A stretch of 64,000 bases of DNA, taken from assembly GCA_017619755.1 (NCBI GenBank), contig JAFZRU010000018.1:29698-93697 (forward strand), read 5' to 3'. Source of the DNA: Prevotella sp. Lineage in GTDB: Bacteria; Bacteroidota; Bacteroidia; Bacteroidales; Bacteroidaceae. Positions 3,150 to 37,228 of the stretch are shown here, piece by piece. The first letter of the stretch is position 1; every line of letters starts with the position of its first letter. The position numbers were made by a program, and so were the translations under genes. The notes beneath the pieces are model-generated. The model did no database searches, was not told where the DNA came from, and saw only the letters and a program-made list of their open reading frames with translations.

Positions 3150-3201
3150 ATCGCTGAACATCCTCTTTAATGTAAAAAAACGCTGAAGGTTCTGCAAATC
3201 A

Positions 3202-5423: not shown

Positions 5424-5493
5424 ACGTCCTAAAAGGGTGACGGCCTCTTGACTGAGCGTCAAGAGAGCCGTCAGAAATGCCCCTGTTGTGTTG

Positions 5494-7470: not shown

Positions 7471-7580
7471 TGTATTGAATTTTTAGTTGTTATTCTCACT
7501 TTGGTTACACTCGTTGATTATTCTAAAGGCACAGCCTCCCAATACTTCATCTGGTTTTCTATTTTTTCGAGCTGTTAGAA

Positions 7581-7861: not shown

Positions 7862-7955
7862 TTCCAGATCGCTTTCTTTTGCCCAAATTGTAGATGTAAA
7901 TCGTTGAGTGTCAACATAGTCGTTCTTCCGAAACTGGAATTGTGTCATATCGATG

Positions 7956-7987
7956 CAAAGATACGACAAAAATTCGTAACTTGCAAA
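7956..7987 (-). promoter_or_regulatory. Consensus Bacteroidota promoter reading toward 7470
   Basis: On the minus strand TTTG (7987-7984) is followed after 20 bp by TATCTTTG (7963-7956), an exact match to TTTG-N20-TAnnTTTG. Transcription would start near 7949 and cross repeat copy A before reaching the DUF3857 gene at 7470. Confidence 0.6.
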
Positions 7988-8035
7988 GTTTATCGAAAAA
8001 ATCACCCTGCGATGATGGAAAAATGAGCACCAATG

Positions 8036-8060
8036 GAAAAAGACCCGTCACAGACGGGTC
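8036..8060 (-). terminator. Intrinsic terminator overlapping the receptor stop codon
   Basis: A perfect 8-bp stem GACCCGTC/GACGGGTC with a 3-nt loop (8042-8060) is followed on the minus strand by a short T run (8041-8036). The TGA stop of the upstream receptor gene (8048-8050) lies within the hairpin. Confidence 0.75.
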
Positions 8061-10594: not shown

Positions 10595-10604
10595 GGCTGT
10601 GGTC

Positions 10605-11192: not shown

Positions 11193-11698
11193 GCTTTTCT
11201 GTTCTGTAAATGATGACGCAGTTTCCTCAGTCCTTGCACGATGTGTTTGTTGACGGCGGAGAGGCTGATGCCGAGTTGGCCGGAGATGTCCTTGTAGGAT
11301 TGGTCATCGTCGTAGTGCATGCGGATGACGCGGGCTGTCTGTGGCGTGAGCCGTTCGTCGATGTATTGCCTGACCATCGTGGTCAGTTCATCATCCGATT
11401 TTCCAAGCCAAGGGTCGGTGTCTGCCAGCGTGCCGGCCAGTGCCAGGCGCTTCTCGGCCTCCCTGTGTCGTTGTTGTTGTGCAATGATGTTGAGGCAGTG
11501 GTTTCGGACACAAGTCAGGAGGAACGTCCGTTGCGACTCCTCGCGCAGCATGATGCTGCCATCCCACAGGCGGGCGAACACGTCTTGTACGGCGTCTTTC
11601 GCCTCGTCCGCATCGCCCAGCAGGATGTGGGCCGCCCTGTACATCCTGCCGTATTCGGAATGGAATAGTCGCTCAAACTGTTGTTCCTTGTCTTGCAT
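11189..11698 (-). CDS. ECF RNA polymerase sigma factor (FecI/RpoE-like)
   Basis: A 169-residue ECF sigma factor. Region 2 is visible as DADEAKDAVQDVFARLWDG with the following TFLLTCVRNHCLN. Region 4 is YKDISGQLGISLSAVNKHI near the C terminus, a helix-turn-helix. It is the first gene of the sigma/anti-sigma/receptor operon and presumably directs RNA polymerase to its own and target promoters when the anti-sigma factor releases it. A -7-like TAAATTTG lies about 85 bp upstream (plus 11780-11787), though the -33 spacing there is poor. Confidence 0.92.
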   Translation of the reverse strand: MQDKEQQFERLFHSEYGRMYRAAHILLGDADEAKDAVQDVFARLWDGSIMLREESQRTFLLTCVRNHCLNIIAQQQRHREAEKRLALAGTLADTDPWLGKSDDELTTMVRQYIDERLTPQTARVIRMHYDDDQSYKDISGQLGISLSAVNKHIVQGLRKLRHHLQNRKA

Positions 11699-11818
11699 CT
11701 TTTTCTACTGTTTTTATCCCTTATACAAACAAGCATGGAGAATCATCACCCCCAAAAGATGTTTTTTTGGAATTTTCTGCAAATTTAGCAAACCAAAAAC
11801 GCCAAGAACCTGGTGCTG

Positions 11819-11864
11819 CTGTAGGGGTGGACTTTATGTCCATCCGCTCGCTCGTCAGGGCGAA
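11819..11864 (-). repeat. 46-bp hairpin repeat (GGACATAAAGTCC family), inverted copy
   Basis: This is the reverse complement of the units at 13416-13461 and 39912-39957. Each unit contains two small hairpins, CGCCC...GGGCG and GGAC-ATAAA-GTCC, and ends CCACCCCTACAG. It lies between the sigma-factor gene and the TPR gene. Confidence 0.7.
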
Positions 11865-11914
11865 TGTTCGTGGCAGCGGATGCCGGTACTTGGTGTCGGG
11901 ACTATATGAAGTGA

Positions 11915-13090
11915 TTATTCCGATAAAGACCCTTCATCCTCCTTGTCGGGAAAAATCTCTTTCATTTTTTCTTCCAATGTATTGTTTTCCAAATATTCTA
12001 CCAATTCGTCCAATTTTGATGATTTATTCACAAGAATATCACGGTTGTAACGGTAATGCTCCACTGTCCATTGCATGGCAAGCCTTTCCATCTCACGTGT
12101 CAGTTTTTTCACTTGATATGTTTGACCTATAATCAAGCATGCACACATATAAGCCGTTATTTCAGTGGGGGCATCCTCCAAATACTTGGCGTGGCATTCA
12201 TCGATTTCCAAAGTTAGTTCATCTGTTGATATGCACCATGCCATGGCATACTTGCCTGCATCTAAAGCATTGTCGGCAGACAATTTATGGTTAATATAAT
12301 AATCAGCGCACCAATAAGCGTCACCTCGATGATATATACAATCCTCCACGGTTTTCAATTCGTCCGCAGAACGGACACCACCCCCGGGTTTCTCCAATTT
12401 CTCTATTGTCTCGGCTGTCCTCTTCGCCTTCATCTTCTCATCAGCACCTTCATAATACTGCTGAAGATATTTGAGCTCGTCGATGTACTTTTCCGACCCT
12501 CTGCCATATAGTTGGTGGGTGAGGTCCAATGCACGCAATTGTATTTGAACAGCTTTTTTGTATTCATTCATTACGGCATAATTTTCCGCGGCATGAACAA
12601 GGATAAGCATCAAGTCATGTTTGGAAAGTTCTATCTGGTCACTTATTTGCAACACCTCCTTGCTTTTTTCCAAAGCCTTTGAAGGATTACCAGCCATTGA
12701 ATAATAAAGCGAGAGATTATCAAGTATGATGGCATATTGTTCGGAAACAAGACCATTTTTCTTGTAAACATCCGACAACTGGCATAGGACATTGATGGCA
12801 TCTTGTAACTGGTCATTGCGCATATAGCATTTTGCCAATAGTGCCATTGCATTCGTGTAATCAGGGTCGGTTTCTCCACCAAGATGTTTGTATATGGTAG
12901 CACTTCTCATGAATAATTCAATTCCTGTGGAATAACTACCTTTCTCGGTGAGTATCTTTCTTCCTAAAGAATCTGCTTTCAAAGCATACTCACGATTCAT
13001 CATCTCTTCTGGAACATTGGCTTCATACTGAGCAAAAACACTACCAGAAGAGAAAATGATGAACATCAAAATCAAAACAAAATACTTCAT
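11915..13090 (-). CDS. Exported TPR-repeat protein
   Basis: A 391-residue protein read from the ATG at 13090, which gives a standard signal peptide (MKYFVLILMFIIFSSGSVFA). From about residue 45 to 215 it shows TPR-like helical pairs (YTNAMALLAKCYMRNDQLQDA; AIILDNLSLYYSMAGNPSKA; AAENYAVMNEYKKAVQIQ). The C-terminal ~170 residues are helical and acidic without a known domain. A -7-like TATTTTTG at 13105-13112 supports this start. TPRs imply a protein-binding role in the periplasm. No partner is obvious. Confidence 0.75.
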   Translation of the reverse strand: MKYFVLILMFIIFSSGSVFAQYEANVPEEMMNREYALKADSLGRKILTEKGSYSTGIELFMRSATIYKHLGGETDPDYTNAMALLAKCYMRNDQLQDAINVLCQLSDVYKKNGLVSEQYAIILDNLSLYYSMAGNPSKALEKSKEVLQISDQIELSKHDLMLILVHAAENYAVMNEYKKAVQIQLRALDLTHQLYGRGSEKYIDELKYLQQYYEGADEKMKAKRTAETIEKLEKPGGGVRSADELKTVEDCIYHRGDAYWCADYYINHKLSADNALDAGKYAMAWCISTDELTLEIDECHAKYLEDAPTEITAYMCACLIIGQTYQVKKLTREMERLAMQWTVEHYRYNRDILVNKSSKLDELVEYLENNTLEEKMKEIFPDKEDEGSLSE

Positions 13091-13212
13091 ATCTCTTTTT
13101 TTCACAAAAATACTAATATTTTGCAATTACGAACCGTTGTTTAACATAGATTAACGCAAAAATGGATGTTTGAATCTGTTCCGAGATACAATTAAGGAGT
13201 GCCCTAACGGGC

Positions 13213-13250
13213 AGAACCAACGGTCGCGGATGCAAAGCAGACGCAACCAC
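13213..13250 (+). repeat. 38-bp perfect inverted repeat, left member
   Basis: AGAACCAACGGTCGCGGATG continues through GCAAAGCAGACGCAACCAC. The exact reverse complement is at 13956-13993. The unit is preceded by a small hairpin TGCCC-TAAC-GGGCA. A related, diverged copy is at 37361-37400. The pair brackets 705 bp with no convincing gene. Confidence 0.8.
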
Positions 13251-13415
13251 TAAAGACGTGGTCAAATCATACAAATCTGTTCAAATCAAACAAATCAAGC
13301 GAACTTGTTTCTAAGAAACGTCATCATTTTTTAGAATTCTAACGAAATAGTCACCAAGAGGCCCGTTGCAACTAAACACCGCGATGCCCGTTGCGTCAAC
13401 CTTCCTTTGGTGAAT

Positions 13416-13461
13416 TTCGCCCTTCCGGGCGAGCGGATGGACATAAAGTCCACCCCTACAG
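13416..13461 (+). repeat. 46-bp hairpin repeat (GGACATAAAGTCC family)
   Basis: Same unit as 39912-39957, with CGCCC-TTC-CGGGCG in place of CGCCC-TAAC-GGGCG, so the stem is kept while the loop differs. Confidence 0.7.
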
Positions 13462-13537
13462 ACGCACCAACCTCTTGGGTTGTATGTTGCATCGGTCTCC
13501 TAAATAGCCATTTGCCAATTTTTTATATCTTTTTTTT

Positions 13538-13792
13538 TCACGGCTTGCCGTTTTTATCAAGTATGAACGTGCCCAAGGCATCATCGAGTTCACTGTTCCT
13601 CAGCCTGTCAGTGAGGCGGAAAGTCTGCCCTTGGCCGAAGAGCACTACGCCTTTTGCACCGACATCATTGACCAAGGTGTTGGCACTATCCATACACTGG
13701 CCGACGTGTTGCGCAAATCCACCGTTTGGTTCTTTTGGTGGGATTGAGATAGCGATACTTGTTGGGCTAAATTGCAAATTTGCATATTTCAT
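13538..13792 (-). pseudogene. Possible gene relic, 84 codons, unrecognised
   Basis: A short frame on the minus strand whose residues 20-84 look protein-like (balanced composition, segments such as GAKGVVLFGQGQTFRLTDRL and ELDDALGTFILDKNGKP). It matches no family I can name. It begins inside an AT-rich direct repeat and lies between two 38-bp inverted repeats. It may be a remnant of a larger gene or a chance frame. The rest of the gap 13091-14214 holds only repeats and AT-rich DNA. Confidence 0.25.
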
Positions 13793-13877
13793 TTTTGCAA
13801 TTTAAATAATATTTTGCTTGATTATCAATGTGTTAATTTTTAATATTTCAAATTTGCATATTAATTTTTTGCAATTT
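13775..13877. repeat. 29-bp AT-rich direct repeat pair
   Basis: CAAATTTGCATATTnnTTTTTTGCAATTT-like sequence occurs at 13775-13803 and again at 13849-13877 with two mismatches, 74 bp apart. Each contains TTTGCAT/ATTGCAAA-like half-sites. Confidence 0.65.
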
Positions 13878-13955
13878 CCTTGTTAAAATGAATAGACCAT
13901 GATTTGTAAACTTGAAAGATTTGTAAGATTTGACTTTCGCTTCGCACGTCTATTT

Positions 13956-13993
13956 GTGGTTGCGTCTGCTTTGCATCCGCGACCGTTGGTTCT
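13956..13993 (-). repeat. 38-bp perfect inverted repeat, right member
   Basis: Exact reverse complement of 13213-13250. It continues into CTCGCC-GAA-GGCGACTACTTTT, a hairpin segment also seen at about 15432-15472 and 25582-25632. Confidence 0.8.
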
Positions 13994-14096
13994 CGCCGAA
14001 GGCGACTACTTTTAGATTCGCTATAGGGTGGATTTCGCAGCATTAGTTTTTGCCGTTGGAGAGTATGCGGATAATCATAAAAGAATTACAAAACAA

Positions 14097-14134
14097 AAAG
14101 CAGGCTGAAATCATTCAACCTGCTTTGATTTTTT
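14097..14134. terminator. Bidirectional intrinsic terminator downstream of the 173-aa secreted protein gene
   Basis: AAAGCAGG-C-TGAA / TTCA-A-CCTGCTTT forms a 12-bp interrupted stem at 14097-14126. A T run follows on the plus strand and CTTTTTGTTTT on the minus strand. It would stop the leftward gene at 14215. Confidence 0.7.
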
Positions 14135-14214
14135 AGTGTTAAGGAGGTAGCCCGTCCCTTTTTCTTGCAATTAAGTTGCGCCATGTGGATAGTGGCCTGT
14201 CTCCTTTCTATTCT

Positions 14215-14736
14215 TTATTCATAATACTCGATGGTGCGCTGCTCCTCCATTTCCTGTCCCATCATGGAAGCTTTGCGGCTGATCCAGTTGCCCTTTGCGT
14301 CAAACTTGTAGTTGGTGTACGGAGTTTCCATCTTCTGTCCACCCATGTCCATCACGGTCTTTACAAGCACACCCTTGTCGTCATAGACATTCGAGCTCTT
14401 GAAGGCACCCATTTGGGTCTCTATCGTCTGGCTCTTCACCTTGCCATTCTCCCAAGCGTATTTCATGGTAATCTCCATTTCCATTCCTTGGCCATTGACC
14501 TTCATCTTGGCCGACTGGATGTAGCCGTCAGCATCATAGACAGCATCGGTCATGCCATCTTGCTGCATCTTGCCATCTTGAGTGAACTTGATGAGCACGG
14601 GGGAGCCCATGCGGGAAGAGGAGATGGACTTCACTGCACCTTTGGCGTCGTTTGCTTCAACGTCATGGAACTTGGTCTGTGCTTGCAATGCGAATGGTAC
14701 GATGAAAAGTACCAACATCATGAATGCTTTTTTCAT
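14215..14736 (-). CDS. Small secreted protein with YD-like beta-repeats
   Basis: A 173-residue exported protein with signal peptide MKKAFMMLVLFIVPFALQAQ. The mature part has recurring short beta-hairpin units: AVYDADGYIQSAKMK, NVYDDKGVLVKTVMD and YKFDAKGNWISRKA. They resemble isolated RHS/YD-type or toxin_YwqK-like repeats. No catalytic motif is seen. Similar secreted proteins are common and uncharacterised in Bacteroidales. Its transcript should end at the terminator near 14100. Confidence 0.7.
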   Translation of the reverse strand: MKKAFMMLVLFIVPFALQAQTKFHDVEANDAKGAVKSISSSRMGSPVLIKFTQDGKMQQDGMTDAVYDADGYIQSAKMKVNGQGMEMEITMKYAWENGKVKSQTIETQMGAFKSSNVYDDKGVLVKTVMDMGGQKMETPYTNYKFDAKGNWISRKASMMGQEMEEQRTIEYYE

Positions 14737-14932
14737 TTCTTAATAATTTAGTTTAGTTGATAATAATGTTTAAAGTTAAACCTCCCCCTTTCCCTGACGG
14801 GGATCGGGAGAAACAATTGATTCCCCTATAAGACGTTTGTAGTTAAAAAAGGTTTAATGGATTCAAGAGGCAATTTTCATCCCCAAGATGACTTTTGTAT
14901 TCTTTCTCTTTGAATATTTCAAATTGCAATGG

Positions 14933-15380
14933 TAGGGTGTCCAATATTATGTAATCAATTTATCAAAAATTAGAGAATTTGGCATTACAATGGTTGCATT
15001 GTTAGATAATAATTCGTCCTTTGCGATGGATTTTGTGCAAAGACGGCCAGCAAGGCCAACGAGATACCAGCCCAGGGCAACGCCCTGGGTAAATGGTAAA
15101 TAACGGAGTAGATTGCGCCCTGCAGGGGCAAAAGCATTATGACATCTATAAGGCTTATGCCCTTTCAGGGCGATAATTGGCTCTCCCTTTTCCCCAGGGC
15201 GTTGCCCTGGGCTGATTGCTTTTGGCCTTTTCATAAATAGCTCTTGCTCGGCATACTGAAAACAAGTTTTCGTCTGCTCTCGCTTAATCGCGATTTTCAG
15301 GCCGTTTTCATCCGCACAGGACGAAAAATTCTTTAATTCTGAAATTCGTGATAGAAATAAACAACATATTGGACACCCTA
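14933..15380. mobile_element. MITE-like element with GGGTGTCCAATAT terminal inverted repeats
   Basis: The left end is TA-GGGTGTCCAATAT at 14933 and the right end ATATTGGACACCC-TA at 15380, a perfect 13-bp terminal inverted repeat next to TA on both sides. It holds no transposase. The interior is copy B of the large palindromic repeat (about 15025-15312), here with the ~70-bp segment in the right arm and in reverse orientation. A 144-bp truncated relative is at 710-853. TA flanks would fit an IS630/mariner-type transposase acting in trans. This is inference from two copies. Confidence 0.6.
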
Positions 15381-25814: not shown

Positions 25815-26438
25815 TCAACCCACTTCCACCAGCACACGCTCCAACCTCAGTCCGAGGCGCAACCTCAGGTTGATGGTCATCATTTGCTCGTATTTTGTGT
25901 TGACGCCGGAGTAGGCGTTCACATACAACCCATCCCCGACATCCTTTTGCGAAGCCCTATGTTTGAGGTTGTCAAAAAGTCGGTCACTGATGATATTTTC
26001 TCCCATCATTCTGATTTTCAGGTCGCGCACACGTTTGGCATCCGCATATTTCACCACTTCTACAAGAGTGTCGGTCACCGTGCGGTGGCAAGTCACCCGA
26101 CCGTCGGGGTAGGTTACCTTCACCAAGCAACGTCCGGCTCCTGTTGGTGTTCCGCCTTCAATGGTCTCGTTCGATTTTTTCCGCTCTACCATTATTACTT
26201 CTCCTTGCTTTCGCAGACGACACGAGAAACTGGTTCGCAGTTTTTTTAGCATTGGTGTCAGCTTTTGGTTCAACAAGAAGACAGCTTCTTGTGTCACATA
26301 TTCACGTTCCATCTTTCTCAATGCCGCCTTTTGCTCTTCGCTTGCTTCCAATCCCAACTCCTCGAGTAACTGGAAAACGTTATGCAATTTGTCAAGTCCT
26401 TCTTTTTTATCCATAGCCATAACTTTCTCTTGTTCCAT
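25815..26438 (-). CDS. Unknown ~207-aa protein, paralogue of the gene upstream; last gene of the defence locus
   Basis: Read from the ATG at 26438; a GTG at 26441 is also possible. Residues ~15-100 are helical with EEQKAALRKMEREYV. Residues ~115-207 form a compact domain with CLVKVTYPDGRVTCH, VEVVKYADAKRVRDLKIRM, ISDRLFDNL, GDGLYVNAYSGVNTKYEQM and a closing TINLRLRLGLRLERV. The same order of segments is present in the neighbour at 26441-27040, so the two arose by duplication. The C-terminal domain resembles an uncharacterised domain that accompanies DNA-modification genes in Bacteroidales. It could act as a DNA- or complex-binding accessory. The function is not known. Confidence 0.65.
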   Translation of the reverse strand: MEQEKVMAMDKKEGLDKLHNVFQLLEELGLEASEEQKAALRKMEREYVTQEAVFLLNQKLTPMLKKLRTSFSCRLRKQGEVIMVERKKSNETIEGGTPTGAGRCLVKVTYPDGRVTCHRTVTDTLVEVVKYADAKRVRDLKIRMMGENIISDRLFDNLKHRASQKDVGDGLYVNAYSGVNTKYEQMMTINLRLRLGLRLERVLVEVG

Positions 26439-26440
26439 CA

Positions 26441-27040
26441 CTACACCCTTTCTATTTTGAGGTTCAAGTGCAGAAGTTTGTTAATTGTGCATAGTTGGTC
26501 GAATTTGAGGCCTGTTGACGACAGCGTGTTCACATAAAATCCATTACCCACAGGTTTTTGCGCCCTGCGGTATTCGTACCGTTCATACAGTTTTTTGGAT
26601 ACAAGGTCGTTGCCGTTCATACGAATCCCAGCTTGTCTCACTTTTTCCGGCCCAATGATTTTCACTACATCCACCATCGTCTGTGACACCATTGGATGGC
26701 ACACCACTTTTCCATCTGGAAAAGTCACTTTGATGACGCCTTTTTTCTGACGGTTGGAGTATGCTGCCGACGTCGTTGTGCTTTGGGGTACTACGACGGG
26801 TCGTGAAATGGGAGATTCGATATGCACACCTGTTTCCGGGTCGTAGGTCATATCGAGCACGAAGTCTCCATAAAAATCTGCCATTAGCAATGCCAATAAC
26901 TCTTTTATCTTTGGAATCACCGTGTTGTCTATGTACTCTCCCTCCATCCTTGTGATGGCTTTCATTTGCTCTTGACTCACGGGCATGCCAAGCATCTTTA
27001 GCATTTCCATGGCCTGATAGGCTTTCTCCAATTCATCCAT
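26441..27040 (-). CDS. Unknown 199-aa protein, paralogue of the gene downstream
   Basis: N-terminal helical part (SQEQMKAITRMEGEYID at about 20-37), a linker with PRISRP-like proline-rich sequence, then the same C-terminal domain as the downstream paralogue: VIKVTFPDGKVVCHPMVSQT, DVVKIIGPEKVRQAGIRMNG, LVSKKLYERY, GNGFYVNTLSSTGLKFDQL and INKLLHLNLKIERV. It starts 7 bp after the HerA-like gene. Its stop codon adjoins the next start (TAGTGATG), so all are cotranscribed. Retention of both copies suggests different partners or a heteromer. No catalytic motif is seen. Confidence 0.65.
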   Translation of the reverse strand: MDELEKAYQAMEMLKMLGMPVSQEQMKAITRMEGEYIDNTVIPKIKELLALLMADFYGDFVLDMTYDPETGVHIESPISRPVVVPQSTTTSAAYSNRQKKGVIKVTFPDGKVVCHPMVSQTMVDVVKIIGPEKVRQAGIRMNGNDLVSKKLYERYEYRRAQKPVGNGFYVNTLSSTGLKFDQLCTINKLLHLNLKIERV

Positions 27041-27047
27041 ATCGTTT

Positions 27048-28646
27048 TCAAATTAAATGAGACACTTTGATTTTTTGCCAGTGCTTGCCTATGCCCAGAG
27101 CCATATTGTAGGCATCCTTTGTGATGAGTTCTCCTTTCTGCAATCCTGCGATGGCTTGTTTCACTTCTTGAAGGGCTCCCCCGGATAGTCCGAAGAGGTC
27201 TCGCAGCACATTGTCGTTCTGTTGTTGCTGTTTTATGATGAGAGGATATTGGGCATTGGCGTAGAAGTCGAAATGGCGGCTTTTGAAACTCTCCATATTT
27301 TGCGTGGCGAGGATGATGCTCATACCTTTGTTTCGCCCCACGGCGATGAGGTTTTGCAACGGCTTGTTCTCGAAGCTTAGCATGTAGTGCGCCTCGTCGA
27401 TGATGGTGAAGTGGCGTACCTCCACACGGTTGTCGTTGGAGGCTTGCTTGGGCAACTGCTCGTAGATGTTGTTAAGTTTGGAGATGACAAAATAGATGAT
27501 GGCTTTTGCCATGATGCCGTCTTTTTGGTATCCTCCGAGGTTGATGATGTAGCAGTCGTTCATCAAGTCGATGGTGTCTTCTGAGGCGAAGGTGCGGTTT
27601 CTCACTAATTGGAGGAGTACGGAGACGATGCTGTCGGCATCGTTCTGCTTTCTTTCTGGCAGGAGGGCGATGTAATTATCAAGCACCTCCTCGAAAGTGA
27701 CGGGTCTGAAAGCCTTGGCTTGGTATGCATTGATGATTGCTTGGCTGAGGCGGTTGTCCATATTGGCACTGATGCGTGCCGCCGAGATGGCACACAGCGA
27801 AGTGGCAAGCGAGGTGGCGTAAAGGTTCACTTCGTTGATAGGTCTGCCAGTGAAGTCCTTGAAAGGTGTGAACGGAAGCGGTTGCTCGATGGGGTTGAGA
27901 ATGGCTTTTCGGTCGGTGTTGAATTTCTGAAGCCATTCATCATTCTCCGGGTCGGAGAATTCACCCTTGTAGTCAAAGAGAAGGAAATTGACCGGATAAT
28001 GGGTGTCAGACGATGCTGCCCGAAGTTGGTTGATAAGTACGGCGAGTAGATTGGTTTTCCCAGAGCCGGTGGTCCCCGCCACGAGTATCTGCGTGTTGGC
28101 GATGCTGCGGCTGTTGATGTCGAGTTGTGCCGGATTGCCATTGTCGTAAGTTCCAATGTTGAGCAACAACTCTGGGATGTCATCAGGCGTCTTTCCCCCT
28201 CTGAGGGGTGAGAAGCGCAGCCACTCGTCCACGCCTCCCTCTTTCATGAGAAGGTCTCTGCCATGGAGCATTTCTTGTGCGAGTACCTTGCTGACGAAGA
28301 TACTGGAGTTCCATTCAGCGTCCACGTCCTTGAAGCGTAATTTGAGCAAGGCCAGGAACACGGCTCTGAGGTTGGCTTTGGTGAAGAATGTGCCGGGGAG
28401 CGGTTCGGAATTTTTGGACATTTGTAGCTCCATGGCCACCTTGATATTGCGAGGTGCCGGGTCGCTCAACCCTATGAGGAGGCATGTGCGCATCACCGTA
28501 CTCCAGTTGAGGGTAATGGGTCTCACGTTGTCTGAATATTCGTTGAGGTTGATGTGGCTCTCCAAGAGTTGTTTCACGTTGGCGAGCATGCTTTGCATGT
28601 CTCTCACCCATCGAAGACCGTCGAGTTTTATCTGTTCTATTTTCAT
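27048..28646 (-). CDS. DndE-like / HerA-family ATPase fusion
   Basis: A 532-residue protein read from the ATG at 28646, 7 bp after the DndD-like gene. Residues ~1-150 follow the DndE pattern: NWSTVMRTCLLIGLSDPAP corresponds to the NVLCR-x-ALCLSL-DP-P segment, then FLALLKLRF and EMLHGRDLL. DndE binds nicked DNA in phosphorothioation systems. The rest is a HerA/FtsK-type hexameric translocase ATPase: Walker A TTGSGKTN at about 175-182, FLLFDYKGEF, Walker B FTIIDEAHYML at about 395-405, and the ILATQNMESF sensor strand. HerA ATPases in defence loci pump or thread DNA for an associated nuclease. The DndE assignment is by eye and should be tested by profile search. Confidence 0.72.
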   Translation of the reverse strand: MKIEQIKLDGLRWVRDMQSMLANVKQLLESHINLNEYSDNVRPITLNWSTVMRTCLLIGLSDPAPRNIKVAMELQMSKNSEPLPGTFFTKANLRAVFLALLKLRFKDVDAEWNSSIFVSKVLAQEMLHGRDLLMKEGGVDEWLRFSPLRGGKTPDDIPELLLNIGTYDNGNPAQLDINSRSIANTQILVAGTTGSGKTNLLAVLINQLRAASSDTHYPVNFLLFDYKGEFSDPENDEWLQKFNTDRKAILNPIEQPLPFTPFKDFTGRPINEVNLYATSLATSLCAISAARISANMDNRLSQAIINAYQAKAFRPVTFEEVLDNYIALLPERKQNDADSIVSVLLQLVRNRTFASEDTIDLMNDCYIINLGGYQKDGIMAKAIIYFVISKLNNIYEQLPKQASNDNRVEVRHFTIIDEAHYMLSFENKPLQNLIAVGRNKGMSIILATQNMESFKSRHFDFYANAQYPLIIKQQQQNDNVLRDLFGLSGGALQEVKQAIAGLQKGELITKDAYNMALGIGKHWQKIKVSHLI

Positions 28647-28653
28647 GGTTTCT

Positions 28654-30663
28654 TTATATCGTTGTGTGCATTCCGAAATAATCATTTGTCACGGTGGTGC
28701 ATTGCGCGTCCTTGTCGCGGTGCAGCGTGTATGTTTTCCCCACGTAGGGTGCTATCTTGGCGAAGTCGTGCTCGGCGGTGATTTCCGTGTCGGTACTCAG
28801 GAGGATGGTTTGCAATGCGAGGTCGGGGAAGTAGTTTTCCAAGATGATGTCGCGGCTCTCTTTGTCGAGTACGCCCATCACGGTGTCAATCATCACGGGC
28901 GGTTCATAGTCGCCTAAATCGTAAAGCACCTTGAGCAGCACCTGCATCACCGTTTGTTTCGCACCAGCATTGAGTTGGTTGAGATAGATTTCGTTGCCGT
29001 TCCTGTGGTAGATTTTAAACGAGATGTCTTCGCTTCCTTCTTGTGAGAGTTCCACCTTTCCCACATATCCTGCGTATGCCACGAGGTTGAGGTTGAGTTG
29101 CTCACGCATCATTCGCTCGATGCTTGCCTTTTTCGCCCTAAGCAGTTTTACGGAGAGCTTGTTGAAGAAATCGGGCAGTTTGCACAGCAGGTCGTATTTG
29201 GGGTCCGGAACCAAAGGGATGTCGTAGTCGTAACGGCTGATTTTCTTCTCCAAATCCTTTATTTCCTTCTTCAGGGTGTCTATTTCGGCCTTTGTCTGAA
29301 GCATTTTCTTGCTGTTGGCTTCGTATCTCTCCATGAGTGAATAGTCGTGTCCGCTGATGGCCCTTCGGCATTCTTCCAGTTGTTCACGCCGTTGGGGCAT
29401 GCTCGTGAGGTCGAGATTGATGCGCTCACGCTTCTCGTCCAGCAAGATGAAGGGATTGGTGTAGGATGAGTTGATGAGCGTGTCAAGCACTTCGGTATCC
29501 ACCGGGGTGAGGAAGGGGTATTCGTCTGTCACATCGTTGTGTTCTTTCTCGGCTAACAGTTCCTCCACGATGGCCATGGTGTCCATTTCACCGATGGCGG
29601 GATGGTGCCGGGCTATGATGGCTACTACCTTTTGGGTCAGTTCTTCCATCTGCTCCTCGTTCCATTGGCTGCCGTGAGCCTCCGCCACCGCTTTCTTGGC
29701 ATTGAGCAACACCTCCATTTCTGTGCGGATGCTCTCTGCCAACCGTGGGATGATGACATTGGTCTCCAAATCCTTCACCAAGTTGTCTGCTTCTTGGCGG
29801 TATTCCTTCTCCCTTTTGCCAAACTGCTCTATGTCTTCTTCCAAGCGTCGCATCTTGTCGCGTGTCACCTCGTCGGCGTTGCGCCCTTTTATGAGTTGGT
29901 CGTATTCCTGCTTGTTGTCATGGGCATAGGCCAGACAATCGGCATATTGTGCCTCTAACTGTGCCAGGATTTCCTCCTTGTTGTGCTTTTCCCTGACAAG
30001 GTTTTGGTATTCCTTGCGTTGGTTCTCGTTCTCCATTCGTTCGGCTTTTTTCTCGGCCAACATCTCGTCGGAGCTTTTTCGCATCTGATAGTATTTGCTG
30101 AATCCCATCACAGAGTTGACAATCTTCTCTATCAGTTTGTTAATCTGCTCCTCTTTAAGCAGTTCGCTGGTTTTCATGGCATCGAAGAGGAAATATCTGC
30201 TCAAGTCTTCAGGCAGGTTGGCTGCGATGAGTTTATTGATGCTGGACTTGTTTTCTTCCCTTTCTTTTGGAGGTGTTCCTGATCCGTAACGGTATGTACT
30301 TCCAGCCATGTTGAGAGTGACGGACTCCAGCACCCTTCCTTGCGTGTGTTGGTAAGCTCTTGTCAACTTGTAAGGTTGCTCCGCTCCGAGTACGAAGCCG
30401 GTGAAGTCTATCTGTAGCACGATTTGCTTGTTTTCCATTCCCTCTGCCACTTTCACTCCTGCGTTGAAGAGTTGCTCAAATATGGCGGCGTTTTTGATTT
30501 CGAGGCCATATAGGGCATGGTAGATGGCATCGAAGAGGGTGGTTTTGCCACAGCCGTTGCCACCTCCCACGAGGATGATGGGGCGGTCGGCTGACACGTC
30601 GAGGTTCAAGTCGAGGTGCTTGTAGGTCTTGTAGTTTTCGGCGTAAATCCTTGTTATTTTCAT
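28654..30663 (-). CDS. DndD-like SMC/Rad50-type ATPase
   Basis: A 669-residue protein read from the ATG at 30663, which overlaps the stop of the 72-aa gene by 4 bp (ATGA). Walker A is GGGNGCGKTT (about 31-40), then a DndD-style FLFDAMKTSELL at about 150-161. A long coiled coil runs ~185-495 with a break near PFLTP. The ABC signature is LNQLNAGAKQTVMQVLL, and the Walker B/D-loop is PVMIDTVMGVLDKESRD, followed by LALQTILLSTDTEI, a sequence typical of DndD. DndD supplies ATP hydrolysis in DNA phosphorothioation complexes. Here no dndC or dndB is present, and a methyltransferase lies upstream instead. Confidence 0.85.
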   Translation of the reverse strand: MKITRIYAENYKTYKHLDLNLDVSADRPIILVGGGNGCGKTTLFDAIYHALYGLEIKNAAIFEQLFNAGVKVAEGMENKQIVLQIDFTGFVLGAEQPYKLTRAYQHTQGRVLESVTLNMAGSTYRYGSGTPPKEREENKSSINKLIAANLPEDLSRYFLFDAMKTSELLKEEQINKLIEKIVNSVMGFSKYYQMRKSSDEMLAEKKAERMENENQRKEYQNLVREKHNKEEILAQLEAQYADCLAYAHDNKQEYDQLIKGRNADEVTRDKMRRLEEDIEQFGKREKEYRQEADNLVKDLETNVIIPRLAESIRTEMEVLLNAKKAVAEAHGSQWNEEQMEELTQKVVAIIARHHPAIGEMDTMAIVEELLAEKEHNDVTDEYPFLTPVDTEVLDTLINSSYTNPFILLDEKRERINLDLTSMPQRREQLEECRRAISGHDYSLMERYEANSKKMLQTKAEIDTLKKEIKDLEKKISRYDYDIPLVPDPKYDLLCKLPDFFNKLSVKLLRAKKASIERMMREQLNLNLVAYAGYVGKVELSQEGSEDISFKIYHRNGNEIYLNQLNAGAKQTVMQVLLKVLYDLGDYEPPVMIDTVMGVLDKESRDIILENYFPDLALQTILLSTDTEITAEHDFAKIAPYVGKTYTLHRDKDAQCTTVTNDYFGMHTTI

Positions 30664-30878
30664 TGCGGCAGGTTGTTGAGGGCTTTCTTGATGATTTGGT
30701 TGAGTTTCTTTTGCTCCACCACGTTTTGCTTGTTGCGCTCGTCGTTGTAGGGCTTCAGAATGTATTCCTTTAGCCATTCTTCATCGATGCCGCTGTCGCG
30801 GCACGACTGCTCTATCAGTTCCATATCTTCCTTTCTCACTCCGTAATGCAGGAAGGTTCGTTCAATTCCTCTTGGCAT
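30660..30878 (-). CDS. 72-aa small protein of the DNA-modification locus
   Basis: MPRGIERTFLHYGVRKEDME begins a short, mostly helical, charged protein with DEEWLKEYILKPYNDERNKQ and a C-terminal KKLNQIIKKALNNL helix. It sits 12 bp after the helicase-nuclease gene and overlaps the DndD-like start, so it is firmly part of the operon. Small helical proteins in the same position occur beside DndD-like genes elsewhere. By that analogy it may regulate or bridge the ATPase. No motif gives a function. Confidence 0.7.
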   Translation of the reverse strand: MPRGIERTFLHYGVRKEDMELIEQSCRDSGIDEEWLKEYILKPYNDERNKQNVVEQKKLNQIIKKALNNLPQ

Positions 30879-30890
30879 GATTCTATCGTT

Positions 30891-33266
30891 TTATAAGGTT
30901 TTCTTGTTCTCTTGTTCCGGGAAAAAGGCCTCCCACCCTGTGGTGTCGGCGGTGGTGTTGATGGGGTGGGGCGAGTAGTACCACACGCCGTTGCGCTCGA
31001 TGATGACGCCGCCGCTCAGATGTTGGTCGGCGCGTGAAGGCTCCTGCATGTATTTCAGTAGGGCGTTGTGCTTGGCGGGGGCTTCTGCATCGCTCATTTC
31101 GCTCTTGGTGTCGAAGAGCATCACCATTCCGTTTTTCAGGCGAATGATGAAGTCGATGTAGAAGAGGGACTCCTCGCCGCCGGAGGTGGTGTATGGGATG
31201 GAGTAGTGCTGCTTACCCTCGTCGCCATTCTTGTACCACCAGTCAATACTTGCGGCATTGTCTTCGAGGAAGTCTCTGAAGCGTTGCTCTGGCGTGGAGG
31301 CTCCTTTCAGTTCGATGAAAGGAAGCAGTGCGTGGTCTGTTACACGGAGACGTGCTTGATGTGTCTCCTCCTTGTAGAGCCGCTCTGCCGGCACTTCCCA
31401 TGTGTAGTCCTCGAAAGAGCGTTGCCTCGCCTCCCTTTGCCGCTTTTGCAACTTGCGCAAATAGAGGTCGAGAGCCTTTTGGATGATGTTGGTGAACTTG
31501 GGCTTGTTCTGGTGATATAGCACCACTTTTCTTGCGTCGGTTTCGAAGAGTTCAAACAACTCTTCCATGGCTTGCAGGAGGTATCCGGCGAGTACGCCCG
31601 TGCTATGTGCCTTCTCAAAGTTGGTGAGCAGGCTACGGCAGTAGTCGGTGTAGATGCGGCTCACCTCGCCGGCACTCCTGGCAAACTTGTGCCGCTCGTT
31701 CACGTCGATAAAGCCCTCTTCGTTTTGGAATACGAGGTTGGTGGGTATTTCCACGTTCACGTTCCTCACGTCCAAACGTATCAGTCCCGCCACTTTCTGG
31801 CGGTTGATGGCCGCTTGGTTTTCCGGTGCCGGTGGGTCGGGGTTCGGTTCGCTGTCGCTCCCGTCTCCATTCAGTTCTTGCAGGGTGAAGATTTGTAGCG
31901 GGGTGTTCAGAAGCCAGTTGCGGCGGAAGCAGTCGAGAAGCACGTGTTTGAAGTCGGGACCCAGACGGTTGCGGTCGCAGCTTTTATAGACGCTATAGTA
32001 GGATTTCAACTCCACGTTGTGAAGCCCGTCGCGGCGGACGGCCTGCAGCACGCCCTTGTTCAGGTAGTCCATGTCCTCCGCCACAATCTGGATGCGGTCT
32101 CGGCTGATGTCGGTATAAACATATCCCACATTGAGGGTTTCAATGGTGTAGAACCGCTGTTGGGGCATCCTCAATATCCGTCCCACGGTCTGAATGGTGA
32201 AGGTGTCGCTTTGCATCTTGCGGAAGATAAGCAGCACGGCGGCGCGGGGGCAGTCCCACCCCAAGGCGATGGCCTGTTTGAACAGCAGGGCCTCCACGGG
32301 GTTGTCGAACTCCTCAATGCCCTCCAAGTTGCACTTTTCTTTAGAGAGCCAGACGGCCAAACGTCCACTTTCTTCGCTGATGCCGTGAACACCGCGTAGG
32401 TAGGCTTTCACCTGCTCGGCGATGGCGGTATCTTCAGCAGTCATTGTTTCGCTCGTGTCGTTGGGAAGTTGGATGAGCAGGAGGGGGTTGATGCTTATGC
32501 CGAGCTGGCGGTAGGCAGCGGCTAATTGCTCACGTTTCGCCACGGCTCGTGACAGCAGATGTTGGTTGAGTTCCCGCTCGTCGGTGTACCCATCTACAAG
32601 GTCGGGGTTGAGCACTACCTGTTTTTTAATCATCTCCTCTGCCACCACCGCCTCTCGGGGGATGGTGACACGGTAGTCGGAGGAGGTCTTCGGTGTGGCG
32701 GAAATGCGGATTTCCAACTTGGGCTGTAGTGCATGAAGCACTTTGGCTGACTTGTCGGCGGTGCGCGACCAGAAGAGATGCTCCTCGTCAATCACCACCA
32801 CCAAGGGCAGGCCGTGCTCCTCTTGTGTGCGGCGGACGAGTTCGAAGAGCGACGCCCCCTGCTCTGTGTCGCGCACAATGACACCGTTGGCCTTGTTGAT
32901 GCTCTCCCAGTTGACAAAGAGTATCTCGCCAGGCTTCAGCCAACCGTCGGACTGGTCCAACTCGTCGTACATTACCGGGCGCAGGAGATGGGTGTCAGTG
33001 AAAAAGCCCTTCATCTTGAAGTAGCTCTGCTGGTGGAGTTTGTTTGGGGCAATCCACATAAAGGCTGCCTCGCGGTATGGGCAGTCGGCACGAGCGTGAA
33101 GTTCGCTCACCAACTCACCGAGAAACTCTGAGGTCATCACCGTCTTGCCAGAGCCAGTGGGAGCCTTGAAGACGAGCTGCTTGCGGTGGCCGGGCAGCTT
33201 CAGCAAACGGATGGATAACTCCAAAAGTTCATATATTGCATCTTTTTGGTAGTTGAGTTGCTTCAT
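30891..33266 (-). CDS. Type III restriction-like helicase-nuclease (Res)
   Basis: A 791-residue superfamily 2 helicase with a C-terminal nuclease. Motif I is APTGSGKT (about 35-42), motif II is the variant DEEH (about 166-169), motif III SATP and motif VI QTVGRILRMPQQR (about 380). The C terminus has a PD-(D/E)XK-type core: FYIDFIIRLKNGMVMLFDTK, with Asp then D-T-K, and GGVIIERNGVWYYS after it. Type III Res proteins translocate or slide on DNA and cut when paired with Mod. It is 14 bp downstream of the methyltransferase. It is shorter than classic type III Res (~950-1000 residues). Confidence 0.88.
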   Translation of the reverse strand: MKQLNYQKDAIYELLELSIRLLKLPGHRKQLVFKAPTGSGKTVMTSEFLGELVSELHARADCPYREAAFMWIAPNKLHQQSYFKMKGFFTDTHLLRPVMYDELDQSDGWLKPGEILFVNWESINKANGVIVRDTEQGASLFELVRRTQEEHGLPLVVVIDEEHLFWSRTADKSAKVLHALQPKLEIRISATPKTSSDYRVTIPREAVVAEEMIKKQVVLNPDLVDGYTDERELNQHLLSRAVAKREQLAAAYRQLGISINPLLLIQLPNDTSETMTAEDTAIAEQVKAYLRGVHGISEESGRLAVWLSKEKCNLEGIEEFDNPVEALLFKQAIALGWDCPRAAVLLIFRKMQSDTFTIQTVGRILRMPQQRFYTIETLNVGYVYTDISRDRIQIVAEDMDYLNKGVLQAVRRDGLHNVELKSYYSVYKSCDRNRLGPDFKHVLLDCFRRNWLLNTPLQIFTLQELNGDGSDSEPNPDPPAPENQAAINRQKVAGLIRLDVRNVNVEIPTNLVFQNEEGFIDVNERHKFARSAGEVSRIYTDYCRSLLTNFEKAHSTGVLAGYLLQAMEELFELFETDARKVVLYHQNKPKFTNIIQKALDLYLRKLQKRQREARQRSFEDYTWEVPAERLYKEETHQARLRVTDHALLPFIELKGASTPEQRFRDFLEDNAASIDWWYKNGDEGKQHYSIPYTTSGGEESLFYIDFIIRLKNGMVMLFDTKSEMSDAEAPAKHNALLKYMQEPSRADQHLSGGVIIERNGVWYYSPHPINTTADTTGWEAFFPEQENKKTL

Positions 33267-33279
33267 CTCTTTTGGCTTT

Positions 33280-35064
33280 TTAGTTGATATTTTCTTCCTC
33301 GGCGGTATCGAAGAGACTGTTGGGGATTTTTTTCACTTCCTTTGGTGGGTCAAGGGGCTGCTCGGCACGGCGGGGGAGCACTTTCTTGTAGGCGTCATAA
33401 ATGGCGGCTGGGAGGGCTATGAGTTGAACCTTGTCCTCTACTTCCCAGAACTCATCATCGAAGGCGTAACGCTCGGGGGAGAAAATATAAATTTTCACGC
33501 GACTGCCACCCAAGTCCATCTTGGAGATGGCAAGAGACAGCTGTGAAGCCAATGTCTCTTCATACACCACGAGCATGTGCTTCCGACCATCGCAAAAATA
33601 ACGAACAAGTTCCTTTTGCAGGACAAGGTTGCCAAAAATGCCCCGCTCTTCATACAAGTCTTCCTTGATGCAGAGCATGTCGGTGGCGGCGGAAACCAAG
33701 GCACGCATGTTGCGAAGCGTGCGGGAGCGAGGAAGCAAAGCGGTGCGGTAGTAGCGAAGGCTGTTGCCACTCAAGCCCTCCACATACTGACCCTTTGGGG
33801 TTGTGTAACCGCAAATCACTCGTTTGTTGCGCTCGTAGGTCACCTGCTCGCAAATCCCATTCTCGTTGTTAGTCACCAAGATGCATTGACGATGGCCACC
33901 ATCCTCAGAGTTTAACTGCATCGTGGCATGTAGGGTTGTGCCAGAGCCGGCGAAAAAGTCAAGGATGAGGGAAGACTTGTCACTTGCAATTCGAAAAATA
34001 AAAGATATAAGCGTTGAAGGTTTTGGATAAGAAAAGATAAATTGTTGTATAACGCTGGACAATTCTGTTTTTGCTGTTCTTGTACTCCCAACCATATCAA
34101 ATGTCCAAATTGTACTTACAGGTGTAGGGGTTAGATTATCTGCATATATACGAAAATTTGCAGACCAACCCTTCTTGCCTTTAATCCATTCGATTCTTTC
34201 AATTTCATCATTGTATTTTTCTTTACTCCATCGCCAACATCCATTGTCACCATTTGTTTCTTTAGGATAAATAATTGACCCGTCAGGAGCTTCAATGCCA
34301 TAATAGAGGCTATCACTTTTATGACCACCCATCAATCTTAATGGTTTCAAATAGTACTTTCTACCTTTGTCGTCAATTTTGTTATAGTGTTCAGGTATAT
34401 TTTGGGGTTTAATACGTTTCAATATGAAATCTTTCTTTGCATAAACGAGAATAAAATCGTGCCTTACTGTAAACCCTTTTACGTCCATTCTTGGACTATC
34501 AGTTTTCTCCCAAATAACATTACCAATGAAATTATTGTTACCTAACACCTCGTCACACAGCAATTTTAGTTGTGCTTGCTCATTATCATCGATGGAGATG
34601 AATATCACCCCCTTTTCCGACAGCAGTCTTTTAGCTATTTTGAGTCTTTTGCTCATGAAAGAGAGCCATTTGGAATGTCGGTAGCTGTCTTCCGTGTCCA
34701 CATAGCTGTCGTTGTAGATGAAGTCCTTGTTTCCTGTGTTGTATGGTGGGTCGATGTAAATGACATCTATTTTTCCCTCGTGTGTGTAGGATAGCACGGT
34801 GAGTGCTTCGAGGTTGTCACCTTCTATAAGTACATGATTGGGGGCATCGGGAGTCTCGCTTTTGATGGCTCTTTCTTTCACTTCTTCCAAAAAGGGCAGT
34901 TGTTCTCTCATTCGCTCCTCCACGTTCTCGGTCTTTTCCTCCCACACCAATCCATATTTTTTCTGGTGGAGCAATTCCACCAAACTGGATTTCTCCTCAC
35001 GGGTCAAACCCTCGAGGTGTTGGATTTTCTTGATGAGTGCTGTTCTGTCAATAGGTTGGCTCAT
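33280..35064 (-). CDS. Type III-like site-specific DNA methyltransferase (Mod), probably N6-adenine
   Basis: A 594-residue protein from the ATG at 35064; the frame runs to a TTG at 35094. Motif IV is IYIDPPYNTG (about 102-111) and comes before motif I, LDFFAGSGTTLHATM (about 370-384). This is the beta-class order used by type III Mod enzymes, and DPPY indicates N6-adenine. HLEGLTREEKSSLVELL-type N-terminal helices and EGDNLEALTVLSYTHEGKID are also typical. The middle (about 180-370) should carry target recognition. It is the first gene of the seven-gene locus. Base content through the recognition part (34000-34550) is more AT-rich than its flanks, which fits exchange of specificity domains. 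Confidence 0.9.
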   Translation of the reverse strand: MSQPIDRTALIKKIQHLEGLTREEKSSLVELLHQKKYGLVWEEKTENVEERMREQLPFLEEVKERAIKSETPDAPNHVLIEGDNLEALTVLSYTHEGKIDVIYIDPPYNTGNKDFIYNDSYVDTEDSYRHSKWLSFMSKRLKIAKRLLSEKGVIFISIDDNEQAQLKLLCDEVLGNNNFIGNVIWEKTDSPRMDVKGFTVRHDFILVYAKKDFILKRIKPQNIPEHYNKIDDKGRKYYLKPLRLMGGHKSDSLYYGIEAPDGSIIYPKETNGDNGCWRWSKEKYNDEIERIEWIKGKKGWSANFRIYADNLTPTPVSTIWTFDMVGSTRTAKTELSSVIQQFIFSYPKPSTLISFIFRIASDKSSLILDFFAGSGTTLHATMQLNSEDGGHRQCILVTNNENGICEQVTYERNKRVICGYTTPKGQYVEGLSGNSLRYYRTALLPRSRTLRNMRALVSAATDMLCIKEDLYEERGIFGNLVLQKELVRYFCDGRKHMLVVYEETLASQLSLAISKMDLGGSRVKIYIFSPERYAFDDEFWEVEDKVQLIALPAAIYDAYKKVLPRRAEQPLDPPKEVKKIPNSLFDTAEEENIN

Positions 35065-35523: not shown

Positions 35524-35823
35524 GGCATTTGAGCAAAAGTTTTGATTGTCCCCCTCTTTACACATGCATGCGCACGTGTTTGTGGGTTGTTTTTTTATTT
35601 TTTCTTCTTTAGGGGGATGCAAGGGGGATTTTCTTCTTTTTTCTTTTTTAGTCATTTAAAGGCGATTTTGCAAGTTGTTGAAAATCAACTTGTTGGCGGT
35701 GTGTATTTGTGAAAACTTCGCAAAGGGGAGTGAAAACTTCGCATTTTGAACAGCTTTTTTGTCGCTTGATGAAGATTCGTTGGGGGGCGAAAAAATCAGT
35801 TGACGGAGTTCGTCCATATCAAA

Positions 35824-36516
35824 ATGACATACTATCGCCGTCATCCTGACATAACTTTGCAGGCGAAAACAGAAAATATCTCACCATCACCCATCGCCAT
35901 GCAAACAGCACAACTCATCCAACAGTCGCTCGCGCCATTCGACAAGAAGATTGATGGCCTCATCCATCTTTATCTGCTCTCCCTGTCCGACGCCAAAGGG
36001 CAGGTAAGTCTCAGTGTGGGAAGGATGGCCACGGAATTAGGCATTCATCGCAAATCATTGTCCGTCGTGCTTGACCACCTGAAGAGCAACGGCTTCATCC
36101 AAAAAGAGGAGACCCAGGGCGAACTCCTTTCCGTCATCACCCTGACAAAGAAACGCCCTGTTCGCCCGGCCATCTCCATCGACGTGCGCCGCAAAGCTTT
36201 CATCGAGGGCCTTGATGCCCATGCCTCCCAATATCCCGCCGATATGCTCCAGGCTTTCGCCGACTATTGGACCGAGCCCAACCGCTCGAACACCCGCATG
36301 CGGTGGGAACTACAACCCACATGGAACCTGTCCATGCGGTTGGCCACCTGGGCACGCAAAGCCATGTCGTTCGCCCGTTCGATGTGCAGCCAGCACCGCA
36401 CCACCTCCGCCGAATATGTGGCACAGGCCCAGCAATGGGCGGAGGCGGAGACCCTGCGCATCATTCGCGAAGCAGAACAAGAAAGAAAAAACACCCGTTC
36501 ATTAATACACCAATAA
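35824..36516 (+). CDS. Winged-helix protein with replication-initiator-like C terminus
   Basis: The frame opens at a TTG at 35800. The first ATG (35824) is used, but an ATG at 35899 is also plausible because a -7-like TAACTTTG lies at 35852-35859. A winged HTH is visible as SLSVGRMATELGIHRKSLSV followed by HLKSNGFIQKEE. The C-terminal part has FADYWTEPNRSNTRMRWELQ and ATWARKAM, a signature found in DnaT/DnaD-like primosomal proteins and small replication proteins of Bacteroidales mobile elements. It is divergent from the methyltransferase operon and 4 bp upstream of the next gene. A role in replication or regulation of a mobile element is inferred. Confidence 0.65.
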   Translation: MTYYRRHPDITLQAKTENISPSPIAMQTAQLIQQSLAPFDKKIDGLIHLYLLSLSDAKGQVSLSVGRMATELGIHRKSLSVVLDHLKSNGFIQKEETQGELLSVITLTKKRPVRPAISIDVRRKAFIEGLDAHASQYPADMLQAFADYWTEPNRSNTRMRWELQPTWNLSMRLATWARKAMSFARSMCSQHRTTSAEYVAQAQQWAEAETLRIIREAEQERKNTRSLIHQ

Positions 36517-36520
36517 TACC

Positions 36521-37228
36521 ATGACCCACAACCAACCCATCGCCATCGGCCAAGTGATAGCCGCCAAGTCGGCAAGTCGCCAAGAACAAAAAATGCAGCT
36601 CTCTCCACTCCAAAGAACGGAAATCGACCACTTCACACACATCTTCCCGACAGAGACGGAACTGTTGGCTTTCTTCGCACCGGGGAAATGGGAGAAAGCC
36701 CTTTCCAACAAGAGGAAATGCTTGTGTTTCGGCACCGTGACGCTCAACGTCGTCAAGGACTATTACGGTGGCAACATCGCACGCCAAATGGTGAAAAACA
36801 ATCTCGTGGGGCTTTACACCCTCGCACGACCCAACGAGAGCATCAACTTGCATGCTTTGGACCTGACCGCCGGCATGTTCTTGGGGAAGTTCGGCAACTA
36901 CCTGCCTGTCTTCGGCATGCTCTACTATTTCGCCTCTTACCTCATTTCTTTCCGCAGCACTTACTCATCGTTTGACTTGCAAGACGTGCTGAGGCAGTGC
37001 GAGCAGAAATTCCTTCCAAGATGGTGTGAGGCTTTAGGGCGGTTGAATGAAACCAAAGACCCTGATAGGGGGACGAAGGTCACAGGGCGCGCCGCCGCCA
37101 TACAATACCTCAGACGCGAATATGTGAACAAAGGGCTCGACGTCAGGGAATCCGCCCTCGTCCGTTACGGGGCTGTCTCCATGGAGGATGTGGCCTTCAT
37201 CGAGAGCGGCGAAGAGATAGCGTTCTGA
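36521..37228 (+). CDS. Unknown 235-aa protein paired with the wHTH gene
   Basis: A soluble protein with no recognised domain. Notable segments are CLCFGTVTLNVVKDYYGGNI, then MFLGKFGNYLPVFGMLYYFASYL, a helical patch that could be a protein interface rather than a membrane segment, and an acidic C terminus. It follows the wHTH gene by 4 bp and must be cotranscribed. Similar two-gene sets of a DnaT-like protein and a protein of this size occur on integrated elements of Bacteroidota. On that basis alone it may belong to the element that carried the defence locus. Confidence 0.5.
   Translation: MTHNQPIAIGQVIAAKSASRQEQKMQLSPLQRTEIDHFTHIFPTETELLAFFAPGKWEKALSNKRKCLCFGTVTLNVVKDYYGGNIARQMVKNNLVGLYTLARPNESINLHALDLTAGMFLGKFGNYLPVFGMLYYFASYLISFRSTYSSFDLQDVLRQCEQKFLPRWCEALGRLNETKDPDRGTKVTGRAAAIQYLRREYVNKGLDVRESALVRYGAVSMEDVAFIESGEEIAF

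Follow-up and report, generated by a model that had tools for sequence, protein, structure and literature searches.

DndD and DndE form the core of phosphorothioate systems. A related set of genes, PbeABCD, inhibits virus replication in archaea with cleavage undetected; pbeB, pbeC and pbeD are indispensable, and loss of pbeA leaves low-level resistance (PMC6459918). In the same paper Xiong et al. (2019) suggest that PbeABCD may pair with methyltransferases, and of 320 solitary pbeAC, 155 are reported to have base-modifying genes within 10 kb (PMC6459918). In the sections of Rakesh et al. (2024) that treat these families, PbeA is likened to type I/III restriction subunits, cytosine methylases accompany CxC systems and a DndE-HerA fusion lies beside a DndD-related ATPase (PMC10853773). 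Here we describe an operon of Prevotella sp. in which a type III-like methyltransferase and helicase-nuclease pair, Mod and Res, is joined to DndD- and DndE/HerA-type genes; it lies in a stretch of 64,000 nucleotides (assembly GCA_017619755.1, contig JAFZRU010000018.1, positions 29,698 to 93,697, forward strand), hereafter the window. Word searches of the main text of PMC10853773 returned neither a type III Mod/Res nor an adenine methylase alongside Dnd/Pbe genes, and our literature searches, with supplementary files (a possible place for an earlier listing) outside their scope, did not find a type III N6-methyladenine (m6A) pair combined with Dnd genes. The first-pass annotation of this DNA knew of no named system with exactly this gene set; the exact set was indeed not found in the literature, but the pairing with methylation had already been proposed in parts of both papers (PMC6459918, PMC10853773). 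As far as those parts extend, Dnd/Pbe-methylation pairing has already been suggested and the DndE-HerA fusion described.

Seven minus-strand genes occupy positions 25815-35064 of the window in the order Mod, Res, SP, DndD, DndE/HerA, P6 and P7. The spacings from Mod to P7 are 13, 12, -4, 7, 7 and -1 bp when DndE/HerA is taken from its second ATG at 28646, and the tight run of seven leftward genes recognised in the first pass is thus confirmed, with a largest gap of 13 bp. We give about an even chance to the reading that the first five genes, Mod-Res-SP-DndD-DndE/HerA, form an anti-invader system in which Mod-Res calls in a sequence-blind Dnd unit, P6 and P7 being optional. The operon would probably be an anti-virus system that reads methyl marks in place of sulfur marks.

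To assess recurrence, we collected the loci recovered through this DndD or HerA clade, 23 in number (L039, on the same contig as L015, and the scattered genes of genomes G700 and G708 were left out). The complete five-gene order is present in 14 of them (the window, L009, L010, L015-L020, L040, L041, L044, L045 and L069), one gene being fragmented or shortened in three (DndD of L017 and L019; Res of L041). Upstream, at least part of Res is present in 20 of the 23, with a 51-aa fragment in L024 and contig ends cutting L014 and L043; at the remaining three the contig ends 109 (L021), 2001 (L022) and 0 bases (L023) beyond the first recognised gene. L046 keeps the first part of DndD only and no HerA, and L024 is fragmented. 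Not all of the 23 loci are independent, L014, L017, L018 and L019 being close copies. The operon was found in three families of the order (f1, f22 and f40) and in a mobilizable-element-like record, L069. In the genus sample this DndD clade occurs in 11 of 150 genomes and DndC-type DndD in five (E 1e-10), a sixth genome with the latter, G010 (L028), falling below that limit; HerA was found in 7 of 393 order-sample and 3 of 395 phylum-sample genomes, with the window's own genome counted in both. Chance co-location of Mod-Res with Dnd genes is ruled out by the repeated gene order, and the concern that the two halves might occur together only here did not hold, given 14 complete operons.

Mod (33280..35064, minus strand, as are all coordinates of the seven genes) is a type III-like beta-class DNA methyltransferase. 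PADLOC, consulted as protein models only, assigns it to MTase_III at 343 bits, the Mod family profile matches EcoP15I Mod (191 bits) and the solved chains 6k0w and 7dsu, and the protein has the DPPY and FAGSG motifs expected of a type III beta-class enzyme with DPPY and FxGxG. By analogy with type III Mods, it is probably an N6-adenine methyltransferase. Res (30891..33266) is an SF2 helicase with a C-terminal PD-(D/E)XK-like motif. It matches ResIII (45.7 bits) and the PADLOC REase_III model (72 bits) and carries the motifs DEEH, SATP, GRILR and D-x(13)-DTK (residues 705-721; 31104..31154), of which D705 and D719-T-K are invariant in all nine aligned sequences, window included; we take this D-x13-DTK to be PD-(D/E)XK. 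Res thereby combines the SF2 helicase and PD-(D/E)XK nuclease of a type III subunit, as read from sequence motifs and family matches only. With type III restriction-modification (R-M) systems of the EcoP15I class the locus shares the Mod and Res pair, their motifs and an exchangeable Mod region, but it has SP, DndD and DndE/HerA in addition, and the Res profile, compared with solved structures, matched no type III Res. A match of Res to PbeA was also missing at E 1 among the PADLOC models, the D-x13-DTK motif being present instead.

The exchangeable region covers residues 176-345 of Mod (34030..34539) and, from identity comparison between loci, is taken as the target-recognition domain. L017 and L018 are only 20% identical in this central region, whereas the rest of Mod is 93%, Res 97% and HerA 99% identical; their DndE-like parts are 86% identical as read, because the L017 start sits in another frame, and agree at 99 of 100 positions from residue 38 on. 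Conversely, the window and L009 share 80% identity in the Mod region, but identity falls to 39% for the DndE-like part, 47% for Res and 52% for DndD. Since the DndE-like part does not follow the Mod-region swaps, we infer that Mod probably sets the target sequence and that the Dnd part would act regardless of sequence. For Dnd systems, by contrast, DndE diversity is proposed as the source of target specificity in the pertinent sections of PMC10853773, a role here ascribed to Mod.

SP (30660..30878) is a 72-aa small protein of the Pfam Sp-DndD type. PF20306 (Sp-DndD) matches it at E 1.3e-4, below the gathering score, and matches seven of eight SP family members with a best E of 6.2e-7; PF20306 would correspond to the PbeB family. 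DndD (28654..30663) is a DndD-clade ABC ATPase without a CxxC hook, scoring 204 bits with the PADLOC DndD model versus 171 for the best PbeC model, and 170 bits with TIGR03185, under the cut-off of 246. Its Walker A and IDTVMGVLD region are conserved among relatives. In an ATPase tree that took in six of the eight DndC-type loci (L051 and L054 were left out), the DndD proteins of the Mod-Res set form one long and separate branch with support of 100/99. They are nearer to DndC-linked DndD than to PbeC if PbeC is taken as outgroup, the root being for drawing only and one PbeC row standing on a very long branch. CxxC is lacking in 15 of 15 members of the clade (L045 has CLC) and present in all three rows treated as PbeC (L047 being the only one scanned). 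Placement of the window DndD in the CxC/Pbe clade is ruled out by the tree and the missing CxxC. A plasmid search gave eight records with DndD at 23-42% identity, two of them covering at least 80%.

The comparison with PbeABCD and CxC systems has two sides. A helicase-nuclease and an ABC ATPase are common to both, SP and the DndE-like part are possible counterparts of the Pbe small protein and DndE, and methylases lie near some of the published examples described in the sections cited above. However, PbeA is an HKD-SF2 protein whereas the window set has a type III Res, and PbeC rows have the CxxC that the window DndD clade lacks. The methylases that Rakesh et al. name with CxC systems are of the cytosine type in the sections concerned, and those sections give no HerA fusion for the CxC form (PMC10853773); the methylases close to pbeAC are given no type in the cited passages of PMC6459918.

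The fifth protein (27048..28646 from the second ATG; the open reading frame opens at 28685) combines a DndE-like part with a HerA ATPase. The HerA domain is clear, matching the C-terminal part of DndH at 97 bits (PADLOC) and the DptH chain 7es4 at E 7.1e-11, with the motifs GTTGSGKT and DEAH. Its closest counterpart is the C-terminus of DndH, but none of the nine proteins scanned with PADLOC matched DndF or DndG, and HerA here stands on a 532-aa protein whereas the matching DndH models have about 1,400-1,700 positions. The DndE-like part (residues 48-134; 28245..28505) is another matter. The profile-library scans listed no DndE model for the window protein, PADLOC DndE gave nothing for any of the 14 family members, and the family profile matched no DndE chain among solved structures; the DndE part of DndC-type loci matches the solved 7x4e. 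TIGR03184 was matched by one of 14 members (L022, E 0.011, residues 36-129, nearly the whole model). A first profile-profile comparison with DndE was weak (local E 0.014, probability 3%), and a second with 10 DndE sequences aligned in the same register with a score of 25.3 and an hhalign probability of 11%; the reversed copy scored 12.4, and the margin over the best of 150 column-shuffled copies (24.2) was narrow. Of the families proposed in the first pass for the seven proteins, those of Mod, Res and HerA were recovered by profile search, that of DndD with PADLOC but under the TIGR03185 cut-off, and the DndE label proved weak.

DndC was found beside none of the 23 loci of this clade and beside all eight loci with DndC-type DndD; Mod and Res matches, in turn, are found in none of those eight. 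Over whole genomes, DndC exceeded the cut-off in none of the 12 genomes that hold the operon or remnants of it, where two weak matches fell below it, and the same model gave 422 bits on a true DndC (L028). DndB was found in none of the 12 with a search whose control was weak, matching two of 14 control genomes and neither over the cut-off. Four of these 12 genomes reach 90% completeness or more with contamination of 5% or less, the other eight being incomplete or partly contaminated. The earlier observation that dndC and dndB are not part of the set is therefore upheld, and the adjacency to dndB or dndC in related genomes that would have told against it is confined, for DndC, to the distant DndD group. 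That group includes DndC-DndD-DndE/HerA in L027, L028, L050 and L051 (the last three nearly identical and from the window's genus), and DndC-DndD-DndE followed by PbeA- and PbeC-like genes in L047-L049 (PADLOC scan of L047 only). The first form, HerA clade 3 in the relevant section of PMC10853773, also has a DndD-like ATPase adjoining a DndE-HerA fusion, but with DndC in place of Mod, Res and SP; its DndD and HerA are about 22-25% identical to those of the window, and its DndE part is detected at 40-45 bits, under the cut-off of 72.

A phosphorothioate system was rejected as the identity of the operon, no DndC over the cut-off and no DndB having been found in the 12 operon genomes, eight of them incomplete or partly contaminated. 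We give very little credence to the variant in which the operon is such a system but relies on a DndC encoded at another place in the genome. DndD and DndE do form the core of phosphorothioate systems, and DndC-type loci occur in at least six genomes of the window's genus (L028 and L047-L051), but DndC did not pass the cut-off in any of the 12 operon genomes with a model that scores a true DndC at 422 bits, and DndD of this set stands on its long separate branch.

Mod-Res relatives without Dnd neighbours in view were found at L031-L034 and L036-L038 (Mod is broken in L032 and L037, and only 1.8 kb follow Res in L033); L029, L030 and L035 are Mod-Res loci cut by contig ends. In the Res tree most of these Dnd-free pairs fall outside the Dnd-linked Res, and L031 is nested within, which suggests secondary loss; the L031 genome also carries the complete L010 operon. 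Such pairs, although Mod is broken in two, argue against the explanation that SP, DndD and DndE/HerA are modification cofactors that scan DNA and bring Mod to its sites, with Res alone restricting. So do the exchange of the Mod region without a matching change in DndE/HerA and the ability of a type III Mod to methylate alone, as given in part of PMC6459918. Published models that pair DndD-DndE with the modification enzyme DndC (in sections of PMC10853773), together with DndC in eight of eight loci of the distant DndD group, lend the cofactor explanation some weight, and we regard it as unlikely.

The same Dnd-free pairs bear differently on a further explanation, that the operon holds two independently acting systems, a plain type III R-M system and a distinct defence unit of Dnd origin. 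It gains from them, and also from two genomes of one distant genus, G700 and G708, in which DndD and DndE/HerA relatives occur as scattered single genes (L025, L026, L052 and L053) and a search at E 1e-8 gave no Res. Correlations of identity among 36 pairs from nine loci, uncorrected for shared ancestry, point the same way: they reach 0.81 between the Mod core and Res and 0.77-0.92 within SP-DndD-DndE-HerA (strongest for SP-DndD, 0.92, DndD-DndE, 0.91, and DndD-HerA, 0.87), against 0.47-0.68 across blocks. By these identity values the operon is made up of two coevolving blocks, Mod-Res and SP-DndD-DndE/HerA. On the other hand, the tight spacing or overlap of the genes, the same order in 14 loci and Res upstream in 20 of 23 are not what independent units would suggest, and the order of helicase, small protein, ABC ATPase and DndE matches PbeA-B-C-D as laid out in sections of PMC10853773. 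Independent action seems to us improbable. In favour of a joint five-gene system stand the repeated order, the lack of DndC beside it, the single DndD branch, the exchange of the Mod region independently of DndE/HerA, the two coevolving blocks, the conserved ATPase and nuclease motifs and the published PbeABCD analogue. Three points weigh against it: the Dnd half can exist without Mod-Res, as the scattered genes without Res indicate; Mod-Res may need no partner, given the L031 pair without adjoining Dnd genes; and the sequence assignment of the HerA protein's N-terminus to DndE is weak, hence our term DndE-like.

If the five genes do act together, Mod would methylate adenine at an asymmetric host site whose sequence is fixed by the exchangeable recognition region, and Mod-Res would sense unmethylated foreign DNA in the type III manner and probably cut it. 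SP, DndD and DndE/HerA would form a second, sequence-blind unit, a Rad50/SMC-like clamp with a DNA-pumping ring. Mod-Res on unmethylated DNA would then call in this unit, which would capture the DNA, and replication or transfer would be blocked, in a way likened to PbeBCD, or the DNA fed to Res. P6 and P7 would probably modulate recognition or recruitment. What we infer for this operon is the chemistry of methylation, the formation of a complex, recruitment and the blocking of DNA, with Res, DndD and HerA presumably acting jointly on foreign DNA, as the first reading of the locus had it. A more far-reaching version, which we offer tentatively, sees a reprogrammable immune machine with two tiers: the exchangeable Mod region would select the sequence, and m6A status, rather than phosphorothioate, would license the DndD clamp and DndE/HerA pump to jam invader DNA besides Res cleavage. 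On that version P6 and P7 would be interchangeable adaptors that type IIG and BREX systems also use, and which kind of self-mark is present would not matter to the Dnd effector core.

P6 (26441..27040) and its paralogue P7 (25815..26441) are 33% identical to each other, and neither gave a family match below E 0.04 in profile searches. They share their N-terminal part with relatives and differ in an exchangeable C-terminal part; the L014 relative of P6 carries Topoisomerase C-terminal repeats there instead (139 bits). P6 is absent from view in five of the 14 complete operons (L010, L020, L041, L045 and L069). P6 and P7 were therefore rejected as core genes on their variable presence, and of the seven-gene set first described, five genes stand as the recurrent core with P6 and P7 as optional accessories. 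In L010 their position is occupied by a 1084-aa helicase (L010:10647-13901) weakly similar to PbeA (E 2.5e-15). Of the 150 genus-sample genomes, 24 have P6 relatives, often as the C-terminal part alone. Fourteen P6 places were opened, with L061, L062, L064, L065 and L068 outside further analysis. At L055-L060 P6 stands beside large partner genes; three partner proteins were scanned from two places, giving an HKD+Snf2 protein and a type IIG protein in L055 and a type IIG protein in L058. The P6 relative L055:9517-10182 is in the window's own genome. L063 has a P6 relative with the BREX genes BrxC and BrxL, and L066 an Mrr nuclease domain fused to a P6-type C-terminal part beside an AIPR gene; L067, its proteins unscanned, resembles L066. 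P6 and P7 look like general restriction accessories, and the P6-type domain is possibly a shared, undescribed adaptor.

L069 (MT835906.1, unverified) is a 15.6-kb faecal record labelled Bacteriophage sp. Genes for MobC/NikA, a relaxase and a tyrosine integrase directly precede its Mod-Res-SP-DndD-HerA. Over 2144-15253 the record resembles part of a mobilizable element that carries the five genes as cargo, with a DUF2971 gene at the end. A MobC-like gene (38% identity) also precedes the DndC-Pbe set of L047, where by position we take a relaxase and an integrase to lie as well. By blastp at E 1e-6 over the window and 24 loci, a search that would miss distant integrases, relatives of these mobilization and integrase genes were found only in their source loci, L047 and L069, the window and the other 22 loci giving none, and a mobile element around the window copy was rejected for lack of such relatives.

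Two plus-strand genes at 35800-37228 of the window run divergently from Mod; weak helix-turn-helix matches in the first of them suggest a possible regulator. Upstream of its Mod, L040 has a partly related protein (48% over about 110 aa). Genes inserted in or just before the operon include RhuM (L010:3437-4447) and an HNH gene (L011:3745-4741); we presume L020:6705-7601 to be an Abi-like gene and L022:4611-6053 a HigBA-like pair.

If the proposed reading is true, the Dnd ATPase core would serve as an all-purpose effector able to work with different self-marks, and a change in one region of Mod could alter which sequence is recognised. Mod-Res alone, DndC-DndD-DndE/HerA and the joined form occur within one genus or order and provide a natural comparison set, which makes the role of DndD, DndE and HerA in defence directly testable by gene removal.

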